Source: Magnetospirillum sp. SS-4 (GTDB lineage: Bacteria > Pseudomonadota > Alphaproteobacteria > Rhodospirillales > Magnetospirillaceae). From it: a DNA stretch of 64,000 bases. Each line of letters starts with the position of its first letter. The stretch's first letter is position 1. The notes below the pieces were generated by a model that had not been told where the DNA came from, ran no database searches, and saw only the letters and a program-made list of their open reading frames with translations. Below are positions 7,614 through 41,139 of the stretch, piece after piece. The DNA lies in contig NZ_CACVCH010000001.1 of assembly GCF_902729425.1 (NCBI RefSeq), forward strand, positions 255,501 through 319,500, written 5' to 3'. The position numbers and the translations under genes were made by a program.

Positions 7614-8372
7614 ATGACGACCGATCGCGCCCAGCCCGCCGGCACCACCCATTTCGGCTTTCGCACCGTCGCCGAGGACGAGAAGGTTTCGCTTGTCCGC
7701 GACGTGTTCGATTCGGTGGCGTCCCGCTACGACCTGATGAACGACCTGATGAGCGTCGGCGTGCATCGCCTGTGGAAGTCGGCCTTCCTCGACGCGCTGC
7801 GCCCCCGGCCGGACCAGAGCCTGCTGGACGTGGGCGGCGGCACCGGCGACATCGCCTTCGGCTGGAGACGGCGCGGCGGCGGGCCGGCGACGGTGTGCGA
7901 CATCAACCGGGAAATGCTGGGAATCGGCCGCGACCGCAAGATCGACCGCAACATTTCCGGCCATATCGGCTGGGTGTGCGGCAACGCCGAATCCCTGCCC
8001 GTTCCGGATCGCAGCGTCGACCGCTACACCATCGCCTTCTGCCTCAGGAACGTCACCCACTGGGACCGCGCCATCAAGGAGGCCTATCGGGTGCTGAAAC
8101 CCGGCGGCCGCTTCATGTGCCTGGAATTCAGCCATGTCGTCGCTCCGGGGCTGAGGCAGGCCTACGAGGCCTATTCCTTCAACGTCCTGCCCAAGGTCGG
8201 CGAGATGGTCACCGGCAACCGCGACGCCTACCAATATCTGGTGGAAAGCATCCGCAAGTTCCCGCCGCAGGAGGAATTGGCCGCCATGATCGAAGACGCG
8301 GGCTTCGGACAGGTCAGTGTCCGCAACCTGTCGGCCGGCATCGCCGCCATTCATTCGGGCTGGCGACTGTGA
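7614..8372 (+). CDS. ubiE: Demethylmenaquinone/ubiquinone C-methyltransferase UbiE
   Basis: 252 aa, class I SAM-dependent methyltransferase. Motif I is LLDVGGGTGDIAFG; the UbiE-specific VFDSVASRYDLMNDLMS stretch lies near residue 40, and the C-terminal LKPGGRFMCLEFS and ALTxxN-equivalent strands are present. It methylates the quinone ring in ubiquinone synthesis, at the inner membrane. It overlaps ubiB by 4 bases. The start ATG at 7614 is preceded by a weak Shine-Dalgarno (AAGGTG). Confidence 0.93.
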   Translation: MTTDRAQPAGTTHFGFRTVAEDEKVSLVRDVFDSVASRYDLMNDLMSVGVHRLWKSAFLDALRPRPDQSLLDVGGGTGDIAFGWRRRGGGPATVCDINREMLGIGRDRKIDRNISGHIGWVCGNAESLPVPDRSVDRYTIAFCLRNVTHWDRAIKEAYRVLKPGGRFMCLEFSHVVAPGLRQAYEAYSFNVLPKVGEMVTGNRDAYQYLVESIRKFPPQEELAAMIEDAGFGQVSVRNLSAGIAAIHSGWRL

Positions 8373-9910
8373 TCCGATCGCTCAGGAACCTTCACCGGCT
8401 GCTGACCATCGGACGGGTCCTGGCGCGCCACGACGCCCTGTTCCTGCTGGAAGAGCATCTGCCGCTGACCCGCCACCTGTCGGCGCTGCTGCGCGGCGGC
8501 CGCCCGCCGGTCGGCACCGGCCGGCCGGGCGAACGGCTAGCCGAGGCGCTGACCGAGCTTGGCCCCTCGTTCATCAAGCTGGGCCAGGCGCTGTCGACCC
8601 GCGCCGACCTGCTGGGCGAGGAGATGGCGGCCGACCTGTCGGGATTGCAGGACAAGCTGCCGCCGTTTCCGGCGGACGAGGCCCGGCGCATCATCGATGA
8701 GGAACTGGACGGCGGCCTGGAGCGCCACTTCAGCAGCTTCGACGACGTGCCGGTGGCGGCGGCCTCCATCGCCCAGGTCCATTTCGCCGTCACCGCCGAC
8801 GGCCGCGAGGCGGCGGTCAAGATCCTGCGCCCCGGCGTCGAGGCCAAGTTCCGCCAGGACATCGACCTGATGTACTGGCTGGCGGAGTGGGCCGAGCTGA
8901 CCATGCCGCGCCTGCGCCGCCTGAAGCCGGTCGAAACCGTCAAGACCTTCGAGGATTCCGTCACCCTGGAGATGGACCTGCGGTTCGAGGCGGCGGCGGC
9001 GGCCGAGCTGGCCGAGAATTTCCAAGGCGACGACAACTTCAAGGTGCCCGAGGTCGACTGGCTGCGCACCGGGCGGCGCGTCCTGACCCTGGAGCGGGTC
9101 CACGGCATTCCCGTCGACGAGGTCGACCGGCTGAGAGAAGCCGGCTTCGACCCGGTCGACATCCTGGCGAAGGCCGCCGAGGCCATGTTCAACCAGGTGT
9201 TCCGCGACGGCTTCTTCCACGCCGACATGCATCCCGGCAACCTGTTCATCGGCGAAAGCGGCAACCTGATCGCGGTGGATTTCGGCATCATGGGCCGGGT
9301 CGACAAGAACACCCGCCGCTTCCTGGGCGAAATGCTGCTGGGCTTCCTGTCGGGCGATTACCGCAAGGTGGCCGAGGTTCATTTCGCCGCCGGCTACGTG
9401 CCGGCCGACCAGTCCATCGATTCCTTCACCCAGGCCTGCCGCTCCATCGCCGAACCGATCCTGGGCCGGCCGCTGCACGAGATTTCCATCGCCAAGCTGC
9501 TGGGACAGCTGTTCCAGGTCACCGAGACCTTCGCCATGGAAACCCAGCCGCAATTGCTGCTGTTGCAAAAAAGCATGCTGGTGGCCGAGGGCGTCGGCCG
9601 CATCCTCGACCCCCACATCAACATGTGGCAACTGGCCCAGCCGCTGATCGAGGGATGGATGCGGTCCAATCTCGGCCCCGAGGCCCGCGTCAAGGACGTG
9701 GTCGGCAACGTGGTCGGCTCGCTGGAGCGGCTGCCGCGCCTGCTGGCCGAGACCGAGAAGACCTATTCCATGCTGGTCGGCCAGGGATTGAAGCTGCACC
9801 CCGATACCGTCAAGTCCATCCTGGGCGACCGTCGACGCGGCCGGCCGTCATCGGCCATGCTGGCCTGGGGCCTGGCCCTGGTGCTGGCGGTCCTGCTGGT
9901 GCTGAAGTAG
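8369..9910 (+). CDS. ubiB: Ubiquinone biosynthesis regulatory protein kinase UbiB
   Basis: 513 aa. GTG start at 8369 overlapping the ubiE TGA. It has the family's signature K-x-G-Q segment (IKLGQALSTRADLL), the VKILRPGV lysine strand, the catalytic-loop HADMHPGNLFI and AVDFGIMG in place of DFG. The C-terminus carries a hydrophobic helix pair (AMLAWGLALVLAVLLVL), as expected for a membrane-bound ADCK/UbiB ATPase that supports the CoQ-synthesis complex. Confidence 0.94.
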   Translation: MIRSLRNLHRLLTIGRVLARHDALFLLEEHLPLTRHLSALLRGGRPPVGTGRPGERLAEALTELGPSFIKLGQALSTRADLLGEEMAADLSGLQDKLPPFPADEARRIIDEELDGGLERHFSSFDDVPVAAASIAQVHFAVTADGREAAVKILRPGVEAKFRQDIDLMYWLAEWAELTMPRLRRLKPVETVKTFEDSVTLEMDLRFEAAAAAELAENFQGDDNFKVPEVDWLRTGRRVLTLERVHGIPVDEVDRLREAGFDPVDILAKAAEAMFNQVFRDGFFHADMHPGNLFIGESGNLIAVDFGIMGRVDKNTRRFLGEMLLGFLSGDYRKVAEVHFAAGYVPADQSIDSFTQACRSIAEPILGRPLHEISIAKLLGQLFQVTETFAMETQPQLLLLQKSMLVAEGVGRILDPHINMWQLAQPLIEGWMRSNLGPEARVKDVVGNVVGSLERLPRLLAETEKTYSMLVGQGLKLHPDTVKSILGDRRRGRPSSAMLAWGLALVLAVLLVLK

Positions 9911-32046: not shown

Positions 32047-32078
32047 GCCCGCCGGTCGTCATGACCCGCGGGCTTTTT
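32047..32078 (+). terminator. Rho-independent terminator after first fibre unit
   Basis: Stem GCCCGCCGGTC at 32047-32057 pairs with GACCCGCGGGC ending at 32072 (10 of 11 pairs), followed by five T residues. It splits the module transcriptionally just before the second fibre gene. Confidence 0.75.
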
Positions 32079-32097
32079 CGTGTCCAAGGAGACCGAC

Positions 32098-33378
32098 ATG
32101 ACCACCCATATCCGTATTCCCGACATTTCCCCGGTGAGCCAGGCCGTCGCCGACGGCTCCCGGAAGGTGTTCGATTTTCCGTTTCCGATCTTCCAGGATT
32201 CCGATCTGGAGGTTCGGGTCGACGGCGAACCGGCGACCGGCGGCGTCGTCAGCGGGGCCGGTTCGTCCAGCGGCGGCGCCGTCCGCTTGGCCGTCGCCCC
32301 GGCGGCCGGCTCCCGCGTCACCCTGCGCCGTCGCCAGACCTATGCCCGCGTCGGCGACTTCGCGGACGAGCGCGCCCCGACCCCGCACGAACTGAACGAT
32401 GCGGTGGACCAGACCGTCGCCGCCCTTCAGGAACTGGCGGAAGAGACCTCGCGCTCGCTGAAGCGGCCGCTGTCGGCCGACCTGTCGCAGCCGGTCGACC
32501 TGACCCTGCCCGCGCCCGAGGCCGGCAGATTGCTGGGCTGGAACGGCGCGGCCAACGCCCTGGTCAACATCACCCAGGTCGGCACCTCCGACGTCCTGCT
32601 CAAGAGCCAGAATCTGGCCGACCTGCCCGACACGGCGCAGGCGCGGCTGAACCTGGGCCTGGCCCCGGTGGCCGCCTCGGGCGATTACGCCGACCTGACC
32701 GGCGCCCCGGTTCTGGGCAGCGCCGCTTCGCTCGACGCCGACACCGACCCGACCCTGGCCGCCGACAGCGACGCGCGGGTCGCCAGCCAGAAGGCGGTGA
32801 AGGCGTACATTGCGACCCAGACTGCCGGAGCCTCTCCCACCCTCCATCACCAGGTATTCACCAGTTCCGGGACCTTCACGGTTCCGGCCAACGCCACCGC
32901 CGGCACCGTCTTCAAGTTCACCGTGGTTGGCGGCGGCGGCGGCGGCTATCAGGGCTACACGGGAGGCGGTGGCGGTGGAACGGCCGTCTACTACACCTCC
33001 GGATTGACCAATGGGCAAACCTGCGCCGTCACGGTCGGCTCCGGCGGGGGCAACGGTACTCCCGGAACCGCCGGAGGGGTGTCCAGCGTCGTAATCGGCG
33101 CCAGCACCGTCACGGGCAATGGCGGCTTGGCGGGCACATCGTCGGCCGGCATCGCCACTCCAGGCGGCAGCGCCTCTGGAGGCACGCTCAACATCGCCGG
33201 CAGCGCAAGCGCCAGCGGCTATGGAAACGGCAGCTACTACTCCGGCGGCAGCAGTCACATGGGATTCGGAGCGACCAACAACAGCTATGCCACCGGCTAT
33301 GGCGGCGGCGGTTCTTGGAACGGCGGCAGCTACGGAAATGGCACCGCCGGCATCGTGATCGTCGAGTGGATTGCGTAA
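32098..33378 (+). CDS. Tail fibre-like protein, copy 2, with glycine-rich C-terminus
   Basis: 426 aa. The N-terminal 165 residues are paralogous to copy 1: VADGSRKVFDFPFPIF against VANGSQTAFTFLFPIF, and LTLPAPEAGRLLGWN against LTLPEPEAGKAIGWN. The C-terminal third (about residues 285-420) is a Gly/Ser/Tyr-rich domain beginning at FKFTVVGGGGGGY, like receptor-binding tips of other phage fibres. It has relaxed codon choice compared with neighbours. Good AAGGAG ribosome site. Two fibres may give alternative host specificity. Confidence 0.7.
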   Translation: MTTHIRIPDISPVSQAVADGSRKVFDFPFPIFQDSDLEVRVDGEPATGGVVSGAGSSSGGAVRLAVAPAAGSRVTLRRRQTYARVGDFADERAPTPHELNDAVDQTVAALQELAEETSRSLKRPLSADLSQPVDLTLPAPEAGRLLGWNGAANALVNITQVGTSDVLLKSQNLADLPDTAQARLNLGLAPVAASGDYADLTGAPVLGSAASLDADTDPTLAADSDARVASQKAVKAYIATQTAGASPTLHHQVFTSSGTFTVPANATAGTVFKFTVVGGGGGGYQGYTGGGGGGTAVYYTSGLTNGQTCAVTVGSGGGNGTPGTAGGVSSVVIGASTVTGNGGLAGTSSAGIATPGGSASGGTLNIAGSASASGYGNGSYYSGGSSHMGFGATNNSYATGYGGGGSWNGGSYGNGTAGIVIVEWIA

Positions 33379-33444
33379 TGCGTTCCCGCCCCGCCCCTCG
33401 CCGGGCGGGGCGCCCTTTCCCTGGATTCTGCGAGGAGATGTTTC

Positions 33445-33750
33445 ATGGCCGACGATCTCGCCCATTTGCGGCTGCGGCTGGCCGGAATCCTGCCCGAGCG
33501 CATCATGGCGGCGATGGCGGACTACGAGGATTTCGCCAACTCGGAACCGCCCGCCGATTCCAAGGGCTTCGCCGCCTGGCACGCGGCGGCCAAGGCGGCG
33601 CTGTCCCATGCGGACCTGCTGGTCAGGCTGGCCCGCTGGGCCGAGGGCTCGCCCGATGCCGCCGAATCGTCCGGCGACAGCGTCGGGCGCCTGCTGTCCC
33701 AGGCCCGCGCCGCCCTGGGCGCCATCGACGACGGGGAGGAGGGGGAATGA
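33445..33750 (+). CDS. Putative small terminase subunit
   Basis: 101 aa, acidic and helical (RLRLAGILPERIMAAMADYEDF at the start, GDSVGRLLSQARAALGAI near the end). The stop overlaps the large terminase start (ATGA). In T7 the small subunit (gp18) occupies the slot before gp19. No sequence motif confirms DNA packaging, so the call rests on position and size. The 66-bp gap before it contains only the ribosome site (GAGGAG). Confidence 0.55.
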   Translation: MADDLAHLRLRLAGILPERIMAAMADYEDFANSEPPADSKGFAAWHAAAKAALSHADLLVRLARWAEGSPDAAESSGDSVGRLLSQARAALGAIDDGEEGE

Positions 33751-35231
33751 CGGCCGTCGATTTTCCCGAGTTCGTCTGGGTGTGGAACCAGCGCCTGGGG
33801 CTCGGCACGCCCGGCCATCAGTTGCGCATGGCGCGCTGGCTGGCGGGGCGCTGGCACGGCCGCGACCGGGAATTGCTGCTGATGGCGTTCCGGTCTTCCG
33901 GCAAGTCCACCGTCGTCGGGCTGTTCTCGGCCTGGGTGCTGGCGCGCGACCCCAATCTGCGCATCATGGTGCTGGCCGCCGATTTCGCCCTGGCCAAGAA
34001 GATGGTCAGAAACGTCAAGCGCATCGTCGAGCGCCATCCCCTGACCCAGGGGCTGAAGCCCAAACGCCGCGAGCAATGGGCCGCCGACCAGTTCACCGTC
34101 AACCGCCCCGGCGAGCTGCGCGATCCCTCGATGGTCGCCAAGGGCATCGGCGCCAACATCACCGGCTCGCGGGCCGAGATCATCATCTGCGACGACGTCG
34201 AGGTGCCCAACACCTGCGATTCGGCGCCCAAGCGGGCCGATTTGCGCGACCGGCTGGGCGAGATCGAATACGTCATGGTGCCGGGCGGCACCCAGCTTTA
34301 CGTCGGCACGCCGCACAGCTACTACACCATCTACGCCGACAGCCCCCGGCTGGAGGCCGGCGAGACCCGCCCGTTTCTCGACGGGTTCCGGCGGCTGGAG
34401 ATTCCGCTGGTCGACGCCGGGGGCCGCAGCGCCTGGCCCGAACGCTTCCCGCCCGAGCGCATCGGCTCGTTACGCAAGCGTTCCGGCCCAAACAAGTTCG
34501 ACAGCCAGATGATGCTGCGCCCGGTCAATATCGCCGACGGCCGCCTGGACCCGGACCGCCTGCGCTTCTACGAAAGCGAACTGGTCCATGCCGAGGGCAA
34601 TGGCCAGCCGCTGCTGACCATCGGCGGACGGCGCATGGTGGCCGCGTCCTGCTGGTGGGACCCGTCCTACGGCGCGCCCGGCAAGGGCGACGCCTCGGTG
34701 GTGGCGGCGGTGTTCACCGACGAGGACGGCCTCTACTGGCTGCACCGCCTCCGCTATCTGGAACACGACCCGGAGCGGACCGACGTGGACGAGGCCACCC
34801 AGCTCTGCCGCCAGGTGGCCGGCTTCGCCGCCGAGTTGCACCTGCCGGCGATCTCGCTGGAGACCAACGGGCTGGGCCGCTTCCTGCCCGGCCTGCTGCG
34901 CCGCGAACTGGCCGCCGCCGGCATCGGCTGCGCCGTCATCGAGGCGGCATCCAGGCGGGCCAAGGACCAGCGCATCGTCGACGCCTTCGACGCGGTGCTG
35001 GCGGCCGGCGCGCTGCACGCCCACCGCGGCGTCTGGACCACGCCGTTCATCGGCGAGATGCGCGAGTGGCGGCCCGGCGGCAAGGGCCGCGACGACGGCC
35101 TGGACGCGGTCGCCGGCTGCCTGCTGTCGCAGCCGGTGCGGTTGTCGCGGCGTTTCGCCGTTCCCGGTCTCCGTCCCGACTGGCGGCCCGGCGGCGGCGC
35201 GGTGCTCGCCCGGACCGATTTCGACATATAG
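33747..35231 (+). CDS. Phage terminase large subunit
   Basis: 494 aa. ATPase domain with Walker A MAFRSSGKSTVV near residue 50 and Walker B IIICDDVE near residue 150. The C-terminal nuclease domain has WWDPSYGAPGKGDASVV, SLETNGLGRFLPGLL and GRDDGLDAVAG, supplying the acidic metal ligands. It would translocate and cut DNA during packaging. Without a portal gene nearby, it has no visible docking partner. The catalytic residues look intact, so the gene is not obviously decayed. Confidence 0.88.
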   Translation: MTAVDFPEFVWVWNQRLGLGTPGHQLRMARWLAGRWHGRDRELLLMAFRSSGKSTVVGLFSAWVLARDPNLRIMVLAADFALAKKMVRNVKRIVERHPLTQGLKPKRREQWAADQFTVNRPGELRDPSMVAKGIGANITGSRAEIIICDDVEVPNTCDSAPKRADLRDRLGEIEYVMVPGGTQLYVGTPHSYYTIYADSPRLEAGETRPFLDGFRRLEIPLVDAGGRSAWPERFPPERIGSLRKRSGPNKFDSQMMLRPVNIADGRLDPDRLRFYESELVHAEGNGQPLLTIGGRRMVAASCWWDPSYGAPGKGDASVVAAVFTDEDGLYWLHRLRYLEHDPERTDVDEATQLCRQVAGFAAELHLPAISLETNGLGRFLPGLLRRELAAAGIGCAVIEAASRRAKDQRIVDAFDAVLAAGALHAHRGVWTTPFIGEMREWRPGGKGRDDGLDAVAGCLLSQPVRLSRRFAVPGLRPDWRPGGGAVLARTDFDI

Positions 35232-35250
35232 GCCAAAGGAGGCCCCGATC

Positions 35251-35550
35251 ATGGACCATACCGCTTTCGATCCCGGCTGGTGGATCACCGCCGTGGAACT
35301 GCCCGTCCTGGGCGGTCTCGCCCTGACGATCTGGCGCACCCGCCACGAGGCCGACAGCCGGGTGGACGCGCTGGAGCATCGCCTGGAGATCGGCCTGGGC
35401 CAGACCCGCGAGGCCCTGTCCGCCTACAAGCTGGAGGTGGCCAAAAGCTATGCCACCACCGGCTATCTCAAGGATGTGGAACAGCGCCTGACCGAGCATC
35501 TGGTGCGCATCGAGGCCAAGCTGGACACCGTCCAGGGCCTGGCCAAATAG
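35251..35550 (+). CDS. Small membrane-anchored coiled-coil phage protein (spanin-like position)
   Basis: 99 aa. One transmembrane helix near residues 15-32, then a charged helical region with heptad spacing (DSRVDALEHRLEIGLGQTREAL and YLKDVEQRLTEHLVRIEAKL). This is the shape of an inner-membrane spanin or a phage lysis accessory protein. It has a good AAGGAG ribosome site and follows the terminase by 19 bp. Spanin assignment is by shape only. Confidence 0.5.
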   Translation: MDHTAFDPGWWITAVELPVLGGLALTIWRTRHEADSRVDALEHRLEIGLGQTREALSAYKLEVAKSYATTGYLKDVEQRLTEHLVRIEAKLDTVQGLAK

Positions 35551-35561
35551 GAGACGTCGCC

Positions 35562-36134
35562 ATGGACCCCATCACCGTCGCCCTGGGCCTCGCCCAGGTG
35601 GTGCCCGGCCTGATCCGCTGGATCGGCGGCGACGAATCCTCGCGGGCGACCCGAATCGCCGAGCAGGCGGTAAACCTCGCCAGGACCGTCGCCGGCACGG
35701 AATCCGGCGAGGAATCGGTGGCCGCCGTCCGGGCCGATCCCGCCCTGGCGCTCCGCCTGCAACAGGCCTGGCTGGCCCATGAACTGGCCTTGACCCAGGA
35801 AGAGAACCGCCAACTGGCCGAGATCAACGCCACCATGCGGGCCGAGGCGGCCAGTCGCGACGCCTTCGTCCGGCGCTGGCGCCCCACCTTCGGCTATGCG
35901 GTGGCGTTGACCTGGACCGCCACCATGGGGGCCGTGTCCTGGGCCATCGTCGCGACCCCGGCCAAGGCGGCCGAGATCATCGCCGCCCTGGTCAACACCT
36001 CGCCCATCTGGGGCGTCGCCCTGGCGGTGCTGGGGGTCTCGGTGGTCAAGCGCAGCCACGACAAGGCGACGACCAGCGGCTCCTCCTTGCCGGAGGGACC
36101 GCTGGCCGCGATAAGAACGGCGATTCGACGATAG
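35562..36134 (+). CDS. Three-TM phage holin-family protein
   Basis: 190 aa. The central segment RDAFVRRWRPTFGYAVALTWT is characteristic of the 3TM holin family, followed by hydrophobic helices near residues 110-130 and 145-165. The N-terminal half is helical and soluble (LAQVVPGLIRWIGGDE). Holins make membrane holes to release an endolysin, but no endolysin gene was found in the window. It is convergent with the ferritin-like gene. Confidence 0.72.
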   Translation: MDPITVALGLAQVVPGLIRWIGGDESSRATRIAEQAVNLARTVAGTESGEESVAAVRADPALALRLQQAWLAHELALTQEENRQLAEINATMRAEAASRDAFVRRWRPTFGYAVALTWTATMGAVSWAIVATPAKAAEIIAALVNTSPIWGVALAVLGVSVVKRSHDKATTSGSSLPEGPLAAIRTAIRR

Positions 36135-38914: not shown

Positions 38915-40099
38915 TCACGCCGGCAGCGACACCGTGACGGTGGTGCCGTTCTCCTGATCGCTGTCGACCTCGATGCGGCCGCCATGGGCCAGGACGATGC
39001 GCTGGCAGATATGCAGCCCCAGGCCTGTACTATCCTCGCCCGCCGTGCCGCGCTTGCCCGAGCGGGAAAACGGCTCGAACAGCGACGCCAGTTCCCCCGC
39101 CGACATGCCGACGCCGGCATCGCTTACCCGCAGCCGGGCCTCGCCGCCCACCACATCCGCCCATATCCGGATCCGGCCGCCGGCATGGCTGAACTTGACG
39201 GCGTTGCCGATCAGATTGTGCAGAACCTGTTCCATCCGGGTGGCGTCGATGTCGAGGTGGAGCGGCCCATCGGGAACCTGGGCGACCAGGGCGATGCCCT
39301 TGCGTTCGGCCGGCAGGCTCAGCAAGCCGGCGACGCGGACCACCATGGCGCCGAAATCCACCTGCCGCCGCTCCAGGTGCAGGCGTCCCGCCTCGATCGC
39401 CGACATGGACAAGGTGTCTTCCACCAGCGCCAGCATGTAGCTGGCCGAGGTATGGATGTTGTCCAGGTAGGACATCTCCTTGTCGCCGATACGCCCCTCC
39501 AGCACCATCTTCAGCAATTCGGCGAACCCCGACACCACGCCCAGCGGGCTGCGCAGGTCGTGGGCCAGGATACCGAACAGCCGGTTCTTGACCTCGTTGG
39601 CCGCCTTCAGGGTGGCGTTGGCCTTGGCCAGGTCCCGCTGGGTGTTGAGCAGCTCGTTGTTGAGCTGGGTCATGGACTCGAAAAACGCCGCATCGGGCGG
39701 CGGGACGGCGGTGCGGCGCTCCTTGAACAACTGGCGCAGCACGGTGACGTGGCTGCTGTTGATCCGGGCCAGTTCCTCGATCAGGGTATCGACCCGCCCG
39801 TCGGTGGGGACGACGGCGACGATCATGCCGTCGCCGTCCACCGCGCCGGAAAAGCGGAAGGATTCGACGCCGCCGGCGGTGACGACGTTCATCTCCCAGT
39901 TATAGGCGTTGGCCTGCCGGCGCAGGTCGGCGACGAAATCCAGCGCCTTGGTGAAGCTGGACTCCTCCACCAGGGCGGCGAGCGGCCGCCCCCGCCGGGC
40001 TAGGCCGGCCAGGGCCGCCCCTTCATGGAGAATCTCCACCACCACGCCGTCTCCGTCGCAGCGCAGGATCAGCCCCGCCCCGCCTTGCCCTCCGGTCAT
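38915..40099 (-). CDS. Soluble sensor histidine kinase coupled to the B12-binding protein
   Basis: 394 aa, no membrane helix. The N-terminal region (about 1-110) is a compact PAS-like sensor domain, then a coiled coil (FESMTQLNNELLNTQRDLAKANATLK) leads to HisKA with H180 in ILAHDLRSPLG. The HATPase domain shows NLIGNAVKFSHAGG, DAGVGM and STGLGLHICQRIV. The start overlaps the stop of the cobalamin-binding gene, so the kinase is probably controlled by it. No response regulator is adjacent, so the output is unknown. Confidence 0.85.
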   Translation of the reverse strand: MTGGQGGAGLILRCDGDGVVVEILHEGAALAGLARRGRPLAALVEESSFTKALDFVADLRRQANAYNWEMNVVTAGGVESFRFSGAVDGDGMIVAVVPTDGRVDTLIEELARINSSHVTVLRQLFKERRTAVPPPDAAFFESMTQLNNELLNTQRDLAKANATLKAANEVKNRLFGILAHDLRSPLGVVSGFAELLKMVLEGRIGDKEMSYLDNIHTSASYMLALVEDTLSMSAIEAGRLHLERRQVDFGAMVVRVAGLLSLPAERKGIALVAQVPDGPLHLDIDATRMEQVLHNLIGNAVKFSHAGGRIRIWADVVGGEARLRVSDAGVGMSAGELASLFEPFSRSGKRGTAGEDSTGLGLHICQRIVLAHGGRIEVDSDQENGTTVTVSLPA

Positions 40100-41139
40100 C
40101 GTTCCGCCTCGATGGCGGCGACGGCATCGACGGCGCGGTCGGCGCGGTCGGCCATGCCGTCCGCCCCCAGGCGCCGCCACAGCAGCGGATCGGTGTTGAA
40201 CGGAAAGCCGCCCACCAGGATGATCAGGTCCCCTCCCAGGGCATCGCGGGCCATGGCGATCAGTTCGGCCGCCTGCCCCAGATGGGCGGCGATGGTCACC
40301 GACAGCCCCAGCACCGACGCCTTGCGCTCCTTCAGGGTGCCGACCACGTCGGCCGGGGGGACGTTGGCCCCCAGGTAATGGCTGTCCCATCCCGCCATCT
40401 CGAAGAAATCCGCCACCATACGCAGGCCGACCTCGTGCAGGTCGCCGCTGACGCAGGACGCCACCATGCTCCGGCCACGCGACTCGCCGGTGAAGACATA
40501 GGGATAAAGCTGCGACATGATCGCCTGGGTGGCGGCGGTCACGAAATGCTCGTGCGCCACGGTGATCCGGTTGAGCTGCCACAGGCGGCCGGTCTCGCGC
40601 AGCGCCGGCTGGAACACGTCCAGATAGACCTGCCGCACCGGCAATCCCGCCGCGACCCGGTCCAGCACCAGCCGCGAGGCGGTCCGGCGGTCGCCGGCCA
40701 GCAGCGCGTCCAGATAGGCGCGGGCCATGTCCGCCAGCGGATTGTCGGCCAGGATGAAGCCGGGGGGCTCGGCCGGGAAATGATCGAGATCGCCGATGGC
40801 GCGGCGCAGCATGGCGCGGACCCGCCGGGATTCGGGTCCCGGCAACTTCTCGCCCAGCACCTCCATCAGGGTCTCCAGGGCGCCGCTGACCTCGGCCATG
40901 TCGACGGCGCGGCCGACCGACACCACCTTCAGCCAGGCGACATAGGCGGAAAACAGCGCGTAACTCTCGTTATCCACCGCCTCGCGCAGGAACAGCAGGG
41001 TCTGGCGGATGTCGTCTTGGTACCGGGCCCGGTCAGAGGCGCCATGGCGCTCCGCCAGATCCGGTTCGTGGGCATAACGCCTCGCCACCACTTCGGCGGC
41101 GAGGTCGGAACGGTCTGAACCGGTCAGGGCGATGGTCAT
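40096..41139 (-). CDS. Cobalamin-binding photoreceptor-like protein (W-x9-EH)
   Basis: 347 aa. Residues about 130-210 form the helical cap domain with W187 and E197-H198 in the exact W-x9-EH spacing of CarH-type adenosylcobalamin light sensors. The B12 domain follows: D-L-H235-E-V-G, SVTIAAH and ILVGGFPF. The lower-ligand histidine (H235) is present. CarH's MerR DNA-binding domain is absent; the N-terminal 125 residues are a helical region of unknown role. Overlap with a histidine kinase suggests light or B12 state is passed to phosphorylation. AerR/PpaA-type SCHIC regulators are the nearest alternative. Confidence 0.82.
   Translation of the reverse strand: MTIALTGSDRSDLAAEVVARRYAHEPDLAERHGASDRARYQDDIRQTLLFLREAVDNESYALFSAYVAWLKVVSVGRAVDMAEVSGALETLMEVLGEKLPGPESRRVRAMLRRAIGDLDHFPAEPPGFILADNPLADMARAYLDALLAGDRRTASRLVLDRVAAGLPVRQVYLDVFQPALRETGRLWQLNRITVAHEHFVTAATQAIMSQLYPYVFTGESRGRSMVASCVSGDLHEVGLRMVADFFEMAGWDSHYLGANVPPADVVGTLKERKASVLGLSVTIAAHLGQAAELIAMARDALGGDLIILVGGFPFNTDPLLWRRLGADGMADRADRAVDAVAAIEAER

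Follow-up and report, generated by a model that had tools for sequence, protein, structure and literature searches.

A probable light-sensing pair in Magnetospirillum sp. SS-4: a likely inverted-order photocobilin and a histidine kinase

What does a B12-binding protein sense, and what does it control, when it carries the residues of a light sensor, has no DNA-binding domain and is encoded by a gene that runs into that of a histidine kinase? This question is raised by two overlapping genes on the minus strand of a stretch of Magnetospirillum sp. SS-4 DNA (contig NZ_CACVCH010000001.1), which we refer to as the window, i.e., the whole 64,000 nucleotides that were analysed, with all positions counted within it. 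We consider it probable that the two genes encode a light-sensing pair, a photocobilin and the kinase that it controls. The sequence, its residues, the predicted fold, the conserved pairing of the genes and the relation of the N-terminal domain (N-domain) of the partner to PpsR are observed, and from these we infer cofactor binding, contact between the two proteins, control by light and the sign of its effect.

The first gene is an intact open reading frame (ORF) by translation, and its product (hereafter the sensor) has the following features:

40096–41139, minus strand: inverted-order photocobilin (photoglobin plus B12-binding domain) as most likely assigned, 347 residues
40780–41121, minus strand: photoglobin (phycobiliprotein-like) domain, residues ~7–120, from profile matches and the model
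41020–41022, minus strand: Tyr40, in the position that the phycobiliprotein-type Cys would take
41011–41013, minus strand: Asp43, aligned with the biliverdin-contacting Asp270 of SasPcob
40933–40935, minus strand: Trp69, aligned with the D-ring Trp296 of SasPcob
40507–40722, minus strand: four-helix cap, B12-binding_2, residues 140–211 (Pfam, 8.5e-16)
40579–40581, minus strand: Trp187, which aligns with Trp61 of SasPcob, the residue stacking on the adenosyl group
40546–40551, minus strand: Glu197-His198 motif, from direct reading and conservation
40120–40467, minus strand: Rossmann B12-binding domain, residues 225–340 (Pfam, 2.8e-22)
40435–40437, minus strand: His235, which aligns with His108, the lower axial ligand in SasPcob

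Direct reading of the translation identified G184, W187, E197, H198, G232, H235, G257 and P261, in the motifs GRLW-x9-EH, GDLH and GANVP. All four elements of the light signature of B12 sensors, GxxW, EH, GxxH and GxxxP (PMC11796333), are therefore found in the sensor, and the W-x9-EH spacing and lower-ligand His235 described in the initial annotation of this DNA were read as claimed. When all six frames of the window were scanned (127,996 codons), W-x9-EH was found twice and GxxW-x9-EH once, in the sensor. Across 96 loci, window included (98 with the window, minus the duplicates L056 and L059), W187 was conserved in 96, E197 in 95, H198 in 94 and H235 in 95; the exception to this near-invariance of the signature was the G of GxxH (80/96). 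Pfam matched only two families in the sensor at E-values up to 0.001, B12-binding_2 and B12-binding, which together with the globin-like nature of the N-domain bears out the earlier statement that there is no MerR domain.

A phmmer search of the PDB placed photocobilins at the top (8j2x, 5.8e-24; 8j2w, 6.5e-24; 8j2y, 1.8e-18); next came 4jgi, a B12 protein (1.8e-14), and 8jbs, the CtMerR domain that responds to light (2e-14), with CarH well behind at about 1e-8. The CarH model NF052513 ranked best in NCBIfam, yet with 56.9 bits against a cut-off of 400; on this score, and for want of an N-terminal MerR DNA-binding domain, we rejected membership in CarH. The initial annotation of a CarH-type core can thus be kept as far as an adenosylcobalamin light-sensor core without MerR is concerned, while the closest solved structures by sequence are photocobilins and not CarH, which shares the adenosylcobalamin cap, the Rossmann fold and the light signature with the sensor but differs in its MerR domain and lower sequence similarity. 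The AlphaFold model of the sensor was of high quality (mean predicted local distance difference test (pLDDT) 91.6, predicted template modelling score (pTM) 0.87), and in a Foldseek search with the whole model the B12 part fell on photocobilins at 1.7–2.1 Å over 204–211 columns among the top 50 matches listed. These matches were B12 domains, CarH-type and corrinoid-protein domains among them.

The initial annotation had left the first ~125 residues as being of unknown type; we assign them to a photoglobin, because profiles of the N-domain match the bilin domain of SasPcob and phycobiliproteins. Alone, sensor residues 41–98 gave a second phmmer stretch against the C-terminal bilin domain of SasPcob that was far too weak (8.9 bits, independent E-value 7.6). 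A profile of 12 sequences (the window and relatives) matched the SasPcob chain at 2.4e-53, with an independent E-value of 1.1e-6 for the bilin stretch, and also matched allophycocyanin beta (1e-4). A 43-sequence profile of the N-domain matched the SasPcob bilin domain (8.8e-8), allophycocyanin beta (1.5e-7), AbPcob (7.6e-6) and many phycobiliproteins, and taken singly 30 of the 43 N-domains matched PF00502 (Phycobilisome) at E-values up to 0.1 (best 2.5e-9). In the AlphaFold model this region is all-helical, with pLDDT of 82–95 per ten residues after residue 10.

The pocket residues were placed by hand, using the numbering of PMC10979010 and a chain offset of six derived from W61 and E71-H72, which set Asp270 on D43 and Trp296 on W69. 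Asp43 was kept in 88 and Trp69 in 93 of the 96 loci (position 43 is empty in the alignment for L043, L052 and L054), and position 40 was Cys in 39 and Tyr in three, the window among these. The sensor thus has in one chain a B12 domain with W-x9-EH and the lower His, a bilin-type domain recognized through the profiles of the window and its relatives, and, by alignment, the Asp and Trp of the biliverdin pocket. The B12 cap and Rossmann domain, W-x9-EH, the lower His and a bilin-type globin on the one chain are shared with the photocobilins SasPcob (8J2W/8J2X) and AbDPcob (8J2Y), and the pocket Asp and Trp with SasPcob (PMC10979010); the differences are that the globin of the window protein is N-terminal and its output a separate histidine kinase. 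Groups of photocobilins with the B12 domain at either chain end are in print (PMC10979010, Zhang et al. 2024), and by its sequence the sensor is most likely a photocobilin of inverted order, with the globin ahead of the B12 domain. A bilin-type globin is likewise tied to B12-binding proteins in the BBAG globins and photoglobins (PMC10151467); the BBAGs are separate proteins, whereas the globin here shares a chain with the B12 domain.

The second gene encodes the partner of the sensor, with the following features:

38915–40099, minus strand: probably soluble histidine kinase, 394 residues; HisKA and HATPase_c were its only Pfam matches
40096–40099, minus strand: ATGA start/stop overlap of the sensor and kinase genes, four bases
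39800–40075, minus strand: PAS-like N-domain, residues ~9–100, from hhalign to the PpsR N-domain and the strand-helix order of the model
39590–39691, minus strand: conserved coiled coil LNNEL..QR.LAK.N, residues ~137–170
39386–39589, minus strand: HisKA, with the phospho-acceptor His180 in HDLR
38921–39247, minus strand: HATPase_c (Pfam)

The junction of the two genes reads ...CGATGACC..., so that the four-base overlap reported earlier can be read directly. The HisKA histidine and the ATPase boxes of a two-component kinase are present, and H180, N295, N299, D327, G329, G359, L360 and G361 were invariant in 20 aligned proteins. The kinase is probably soluble, as had been suggested, since its most hydrophobic stretch of 19 residues averages just 1.24 on the Kyte-Doolittle scale. 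Its AlphaFold model (pLDDT 80.5, pTM 0.49) has a helix at 137–200 and an N-domain in the order strand-strand-helices-three strands.

We scanned one genome for each species and identified 555 relatives, of which the best 80 form our named set; as the query was built mostly from kinase-linked members, the share of kinases given here is that of the near subfamily. The best 80 of the 555 span Alphaproteobacteria (Magnetospirillum, Azospirillum), Gammaproteobacteria (e.g., Thiomargarita), Chloroflexi, Bacteroidota, Firmicutes (Heliobacterium, Paenibacillus), Planctomycetes, Verrucomicrobia and others. A tblastn search with the window kinase identified a homolog directly downstream of the sensor gene at 77 of 95 loci, and at 70 of 78 in the named set (window excluded, and the duplicates L056 (of L039) and L059 (of L040) dropped); this count missed L074, which carries HATPase_c. 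Among the 89 of 98 loci with usable partners, 41 (window included) had exactly the four-base overlap and 74 had a spacing of -30 to +20. Four of the remaining loci have no separate partner ORF (L051, L055, L073, L103), and we dropped L054 (AerR-PpsR), L056, L059, L076 and L131 (runs of N or wrong frame). The distance matrices of sensors and partners were correlated (r 0.65, n=75 loci; best of 1000 permutations 0.18), although such a correlation is also expected from shared ancestry.

The outputs of the partners vary: LuxR-type helix-turn-helix (HTH) proteins at L045–L048 (GerE in 4/4), GGDEF at L117, hybrid kinases with REC (L078, L089, L104) or REC and Hpt (L108), partners that stop after the coiled coil and match no Pfam output domain (L110, L130, L135), and short partners of 175, 176 and 183 residues, also with no Pfam output (L050, L052, L053), the sole match in that of L053 being to a coiled-coil family below its cut-off. 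At a Verrucomicrobiales locus (L103, 7950–10550) one ORF of 866 residues joins photoglobin, B12 domain, coil (TNNELANLQRE), PAS and HATPase_c, with no HisKA listed at E-values up to 1e-5. The coupling to a soluble histidine kinase proposed in the initial annotation therefore recurs across phyla, once as a fusion, and because the pairing is found in so many phyla light is probably able to act through a phosphate relay and not only by switching a repressor.

Within the partners the coil motif N[ND]x[LIM]x3[QHRK] was present in 74 of 89, and hhalign matched a profile of 26 partner N-domains to the N-domain of PpsR (9 sequences) with a probability of 93 (E-value 2.9e-7, 107 columns). With 8 PpsR sequences the E-value was 3e-7 for the N-domain, as compared with 0.0044 for PAS1 and 0.019 for PAS2 of PpsR, and 40 column shuffles scored 18.4 or less against 49 for the real comparison. 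The L054 partner is PpsR by TIGR02040 (520.8 bits, the cut-off being 275.4; all three PpsR sequences tested pass), and the gene just upstream of it encodes an AerR-like protein (PDB 7te2, 5.1e-20; no NCBIfam match). As in AerR-PpsR/CrtJ, the B12 sensor of the window has no DNA-binding domain and lies directly upstream of a partner with a related N-domain; it differs in having the globin and the EH that the AerR-like L054 protein lacks, and in a kinase as partner. In place of a kinase PpsR has a DNA-binding HTH, and it contains two more PAS domains. The locus was accordingly not placed in the AerR-PpsR system, as its partner, while having an N-domain of PpsR type by profile comparison, is a kinase and not the PpsR of a photosynthetic bacterium; in the window genome no reaction centre was found with PF00124, and no PpsR homolog at E-values up to 1e-20.

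AppA binds, through its SCHIC domain, the linker helix that follows the N-domain of PpsR; AerR has been modelled at the same place, and in a model AerR Gln112 is a possible contact of the CrtJ linker (PMC9144470). Gln205 of the sensor (W187+18) aligns with Gln112 by a hand-derived offset and was kept at 94 of 96 loci, and on these grounds an AerR/PpsR-like contact is our best guess for the link between cap and kinase; by this analogy we infer that the kinase may be controlled through its coiled coil. A contact pattern apparently shared by N147/L150/Q154/N161 and Gln133/Leu136/Gln140/Tyr147 of CrtJ was set aside, having been matched by eye and perhaps reflecting ordinary coiled-coil spacing.

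In the mechanism we propose, adenosylcobalamin would in the dark have the four-helix cap (W187, E197-H198) on one side and the Rossmann domain on the other, with H235 below the cobalt. In the light the Co–C bond would break, the adenosyl group would leave and the cap would shift, a step known for CarH and SasPcob and here extended to the sensor, and a bilin in the globin could extend the response towards red. The shifted cap would alter the hold of the sensor on the kinase, most likely at the conserved coiled coil and PAS-like N-domain and much as AerR or the AppA SCHIC domain is thought to hold the linker helix of PpsR/CrtJ; kinase or phosphatase activity would then be switched, its target being a response regulator whose gene would lie elsewhere in the genome.

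Several results weigh against this reading. Foldseek placed the CtMerR B12 domain (8jbs/8jbt, 2.5–3.0 Å) above the photocobilins, and the N-domain of the window sensor by itself gave no match to PF00502 at E-values up to 0.1. A single PpsR sequence reached a probability of only 36.5 against the partner profile, and the LuxR-type partners alone had no PpsR match (E-value 0.025, n=4). Searches of the PDB, Pfam and Foldseek with the partner had no PpsR among the matches listed, so that the link to PpsR is drawn from profile comparison: the four PDB matches of an N-domain profile were coiled-coil or unrelated, none of them a PAS or PpsR chain; 26 N-terminal partner stretches matched 24 Pfam families but no PAS model; and the top 50 Foldseek matches listed for the kinase model were mostly histidine kinases, plus phytochromes and other sensor proteins. 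By eye the PAS-like N-domain was absent from the partners at L043, L049, L069, L102 and L106, and it can therefore not be the sole contact. At L043 a sensor with no globin lies beside a kinase with no PAS-like N-domain, as if both front domains cooperate, but this is one case and not a rule, as elsewhere partners with no N-domain lie beside globin-bearing sensors. Pfam and NCBIfam identified no response regulator beside the kinase in the window, and its regulator would consequently lie elsewhere; Response_reg was found in 10/10 third genes that had been hand-picked for a receiver-like start from the 53 third ORFs in the 98 loci.

The remaining points against concern the bilin. Tyr40 stands where many relatives carry the bilin-type Cys, and we identified no heme oxygenase in the window genome (100% complete) with PF01126, PF14518, a same-genus heme-oxygenase query (best E-value 0.2) or a four-sequence profile, the last an empty result with no positive control; for both reasons the bilin half may go unused. 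The bilin pocket seems, from the sequences, to erode in this lineage, with Tyr40 in the window, Asp40/Glu43 in the same-genus relative L041 and the globin lost from the sensor of L043 (G005:C25), also of the same genus. These observations, and the precedent of AbDPcob with a biliverdin occupancy of about 20% (PMC10979010), would suit a narrower form of our reading with which it is compatible, namely a sensor of light through B12 only, whose globin has lost its bilin and now serves as a structural or docking piece; we put this just short of an even chance. D43 and W69 are nevertheless retained, SasPcob binds biliverdin without a Cys (PMC10979010), and a bilin could be supplied externally or by an oxygenase of a family that was not searched. 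Absence by PF01126 is no proof, given that it missed a heme-oxygenase relative in a Telmatospirillum-like genome (L040; 7419–7949, minus strand), which lies divergent just upstream of the sensor ORF (8119–9219). PF01126 matched 8 of 12 genomes with a full-length sensor as compared with 31 of 187 others (Fisher p 3e-4), a test that ignores kinship and in which the 12 were hand-chosen as full-length matches, the window genome being among the four with no match. On balance we find it doubtful that the pocket is filled in Magnetospirillum sp. SS-4. In favour of our reading, its genome has a cobalamin adenosyltransferase (PF02572).

Two further explanations were weighed. The sensor could report adenosylcobalamin itself, or the state of cobalamin or redox, with light irrelevant in vivo, which we regard as unlikely. 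Some B12 sensors of LitR/AerR type also respond to cofactor level, and no phytochrome (PHY domain, PF00360) or reaction-centre gene (PF00124) was found in the window genome, other light-related families not having been searched; this explanation is however difficult to reconcile with the presence and near-invariance of the light signature, and with a bilin-type domain alongside it in most of the loci examined. That the sensor is a corrinoid methyl-transfer protein of MtaC/MtbC type, with the kinase a chance neighbour, is highly improbable: it does match the MtbC and MtgC models weakly, but no score comes near its cut-off (MtbC, 53 bits where 350 are required), for which we rejected this assignment, W-x9-EH is present, the neighbouring ORFs scanned contained no corrinoid methyltransferase, and the pairing with the kinase is conserved.

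We return to the pair of photocobilin and kinase, and speculate, at somewhat less than an even chance, that it belongs to a two-gene module found across phyla, in which a bilin and B12 photosensor is joined by one conserved PAS-like/coiled-coil adaptor to outputs that can be exchanged for one another (kinase, hybrid kinase, GGDEF, LuxR-HTH or none), with AerR-PpsR as a cousin specialised for photosynthesis and related on both the sensor and partner sides. The initial annotation regarded the output mode as little described; action of photocobilins through protein-protein contact is already in print (PMC10979010), in a paper whose gene-neighbourhood analysis included a Magnetospirillum species among the four chosen. 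With photocobilins, either domain order and action by contact already published, what appears novel is an inverted photocobilin with a dedicated kinase through a PpsR-type adaptor. Neither PMC10979010 nor PMC11796333 uses the word "kinase" in its main text (the supplements of PMC10979010 lie outside this count), and "histidine kinase" has 0 occurrences in that of PMC10151467. Among the titles and abstract starts of the literature on photocobilins, photoglobins, B12/kinase photoreceptors and AerR/PpsR there was no photocobilin-kinase operon, although the photoglobin paper of Schneider et al. 2022, outside this coverage, may describe the pairing. If our reading is correct, standalone photocobilins, whose function was "less clear" to their discoverers (PMC10979010), would gain a concrete partner and output; B12 light sensing would be tied to phosphorelays, here in a genome with no reaction centre; there would be a path by which the control of bacterial photosynthesis through AerR-PpsR could have evolved; and the adaptor could be swapped for optogenetic use.

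In addition, the full-length sensor is listed in 4 of 17 same-genus genomes (G000, G005, G007 and G010), a patchy distribution that suggests transfer or loss. The genes upstream of the sensor, in the same orientation, encode a Methyltransf_4 protein (which we take to be TrmB-like), SAM synthetase, an HTH protein and apolipoprotein N-acyltransferase, while ccmA and ccmB are oriented towards the kinase gene from its other side. Beside ccmA/ccmB and near the sensor locus, a cluster at 32061–36134 (plus strand) with a terminase large subunit (PHROG 38, 3.9e-80) and a holin of gene-transfer-agent type (PF11351) appears to be a prophage remnant or gene-transfer-agent-like.

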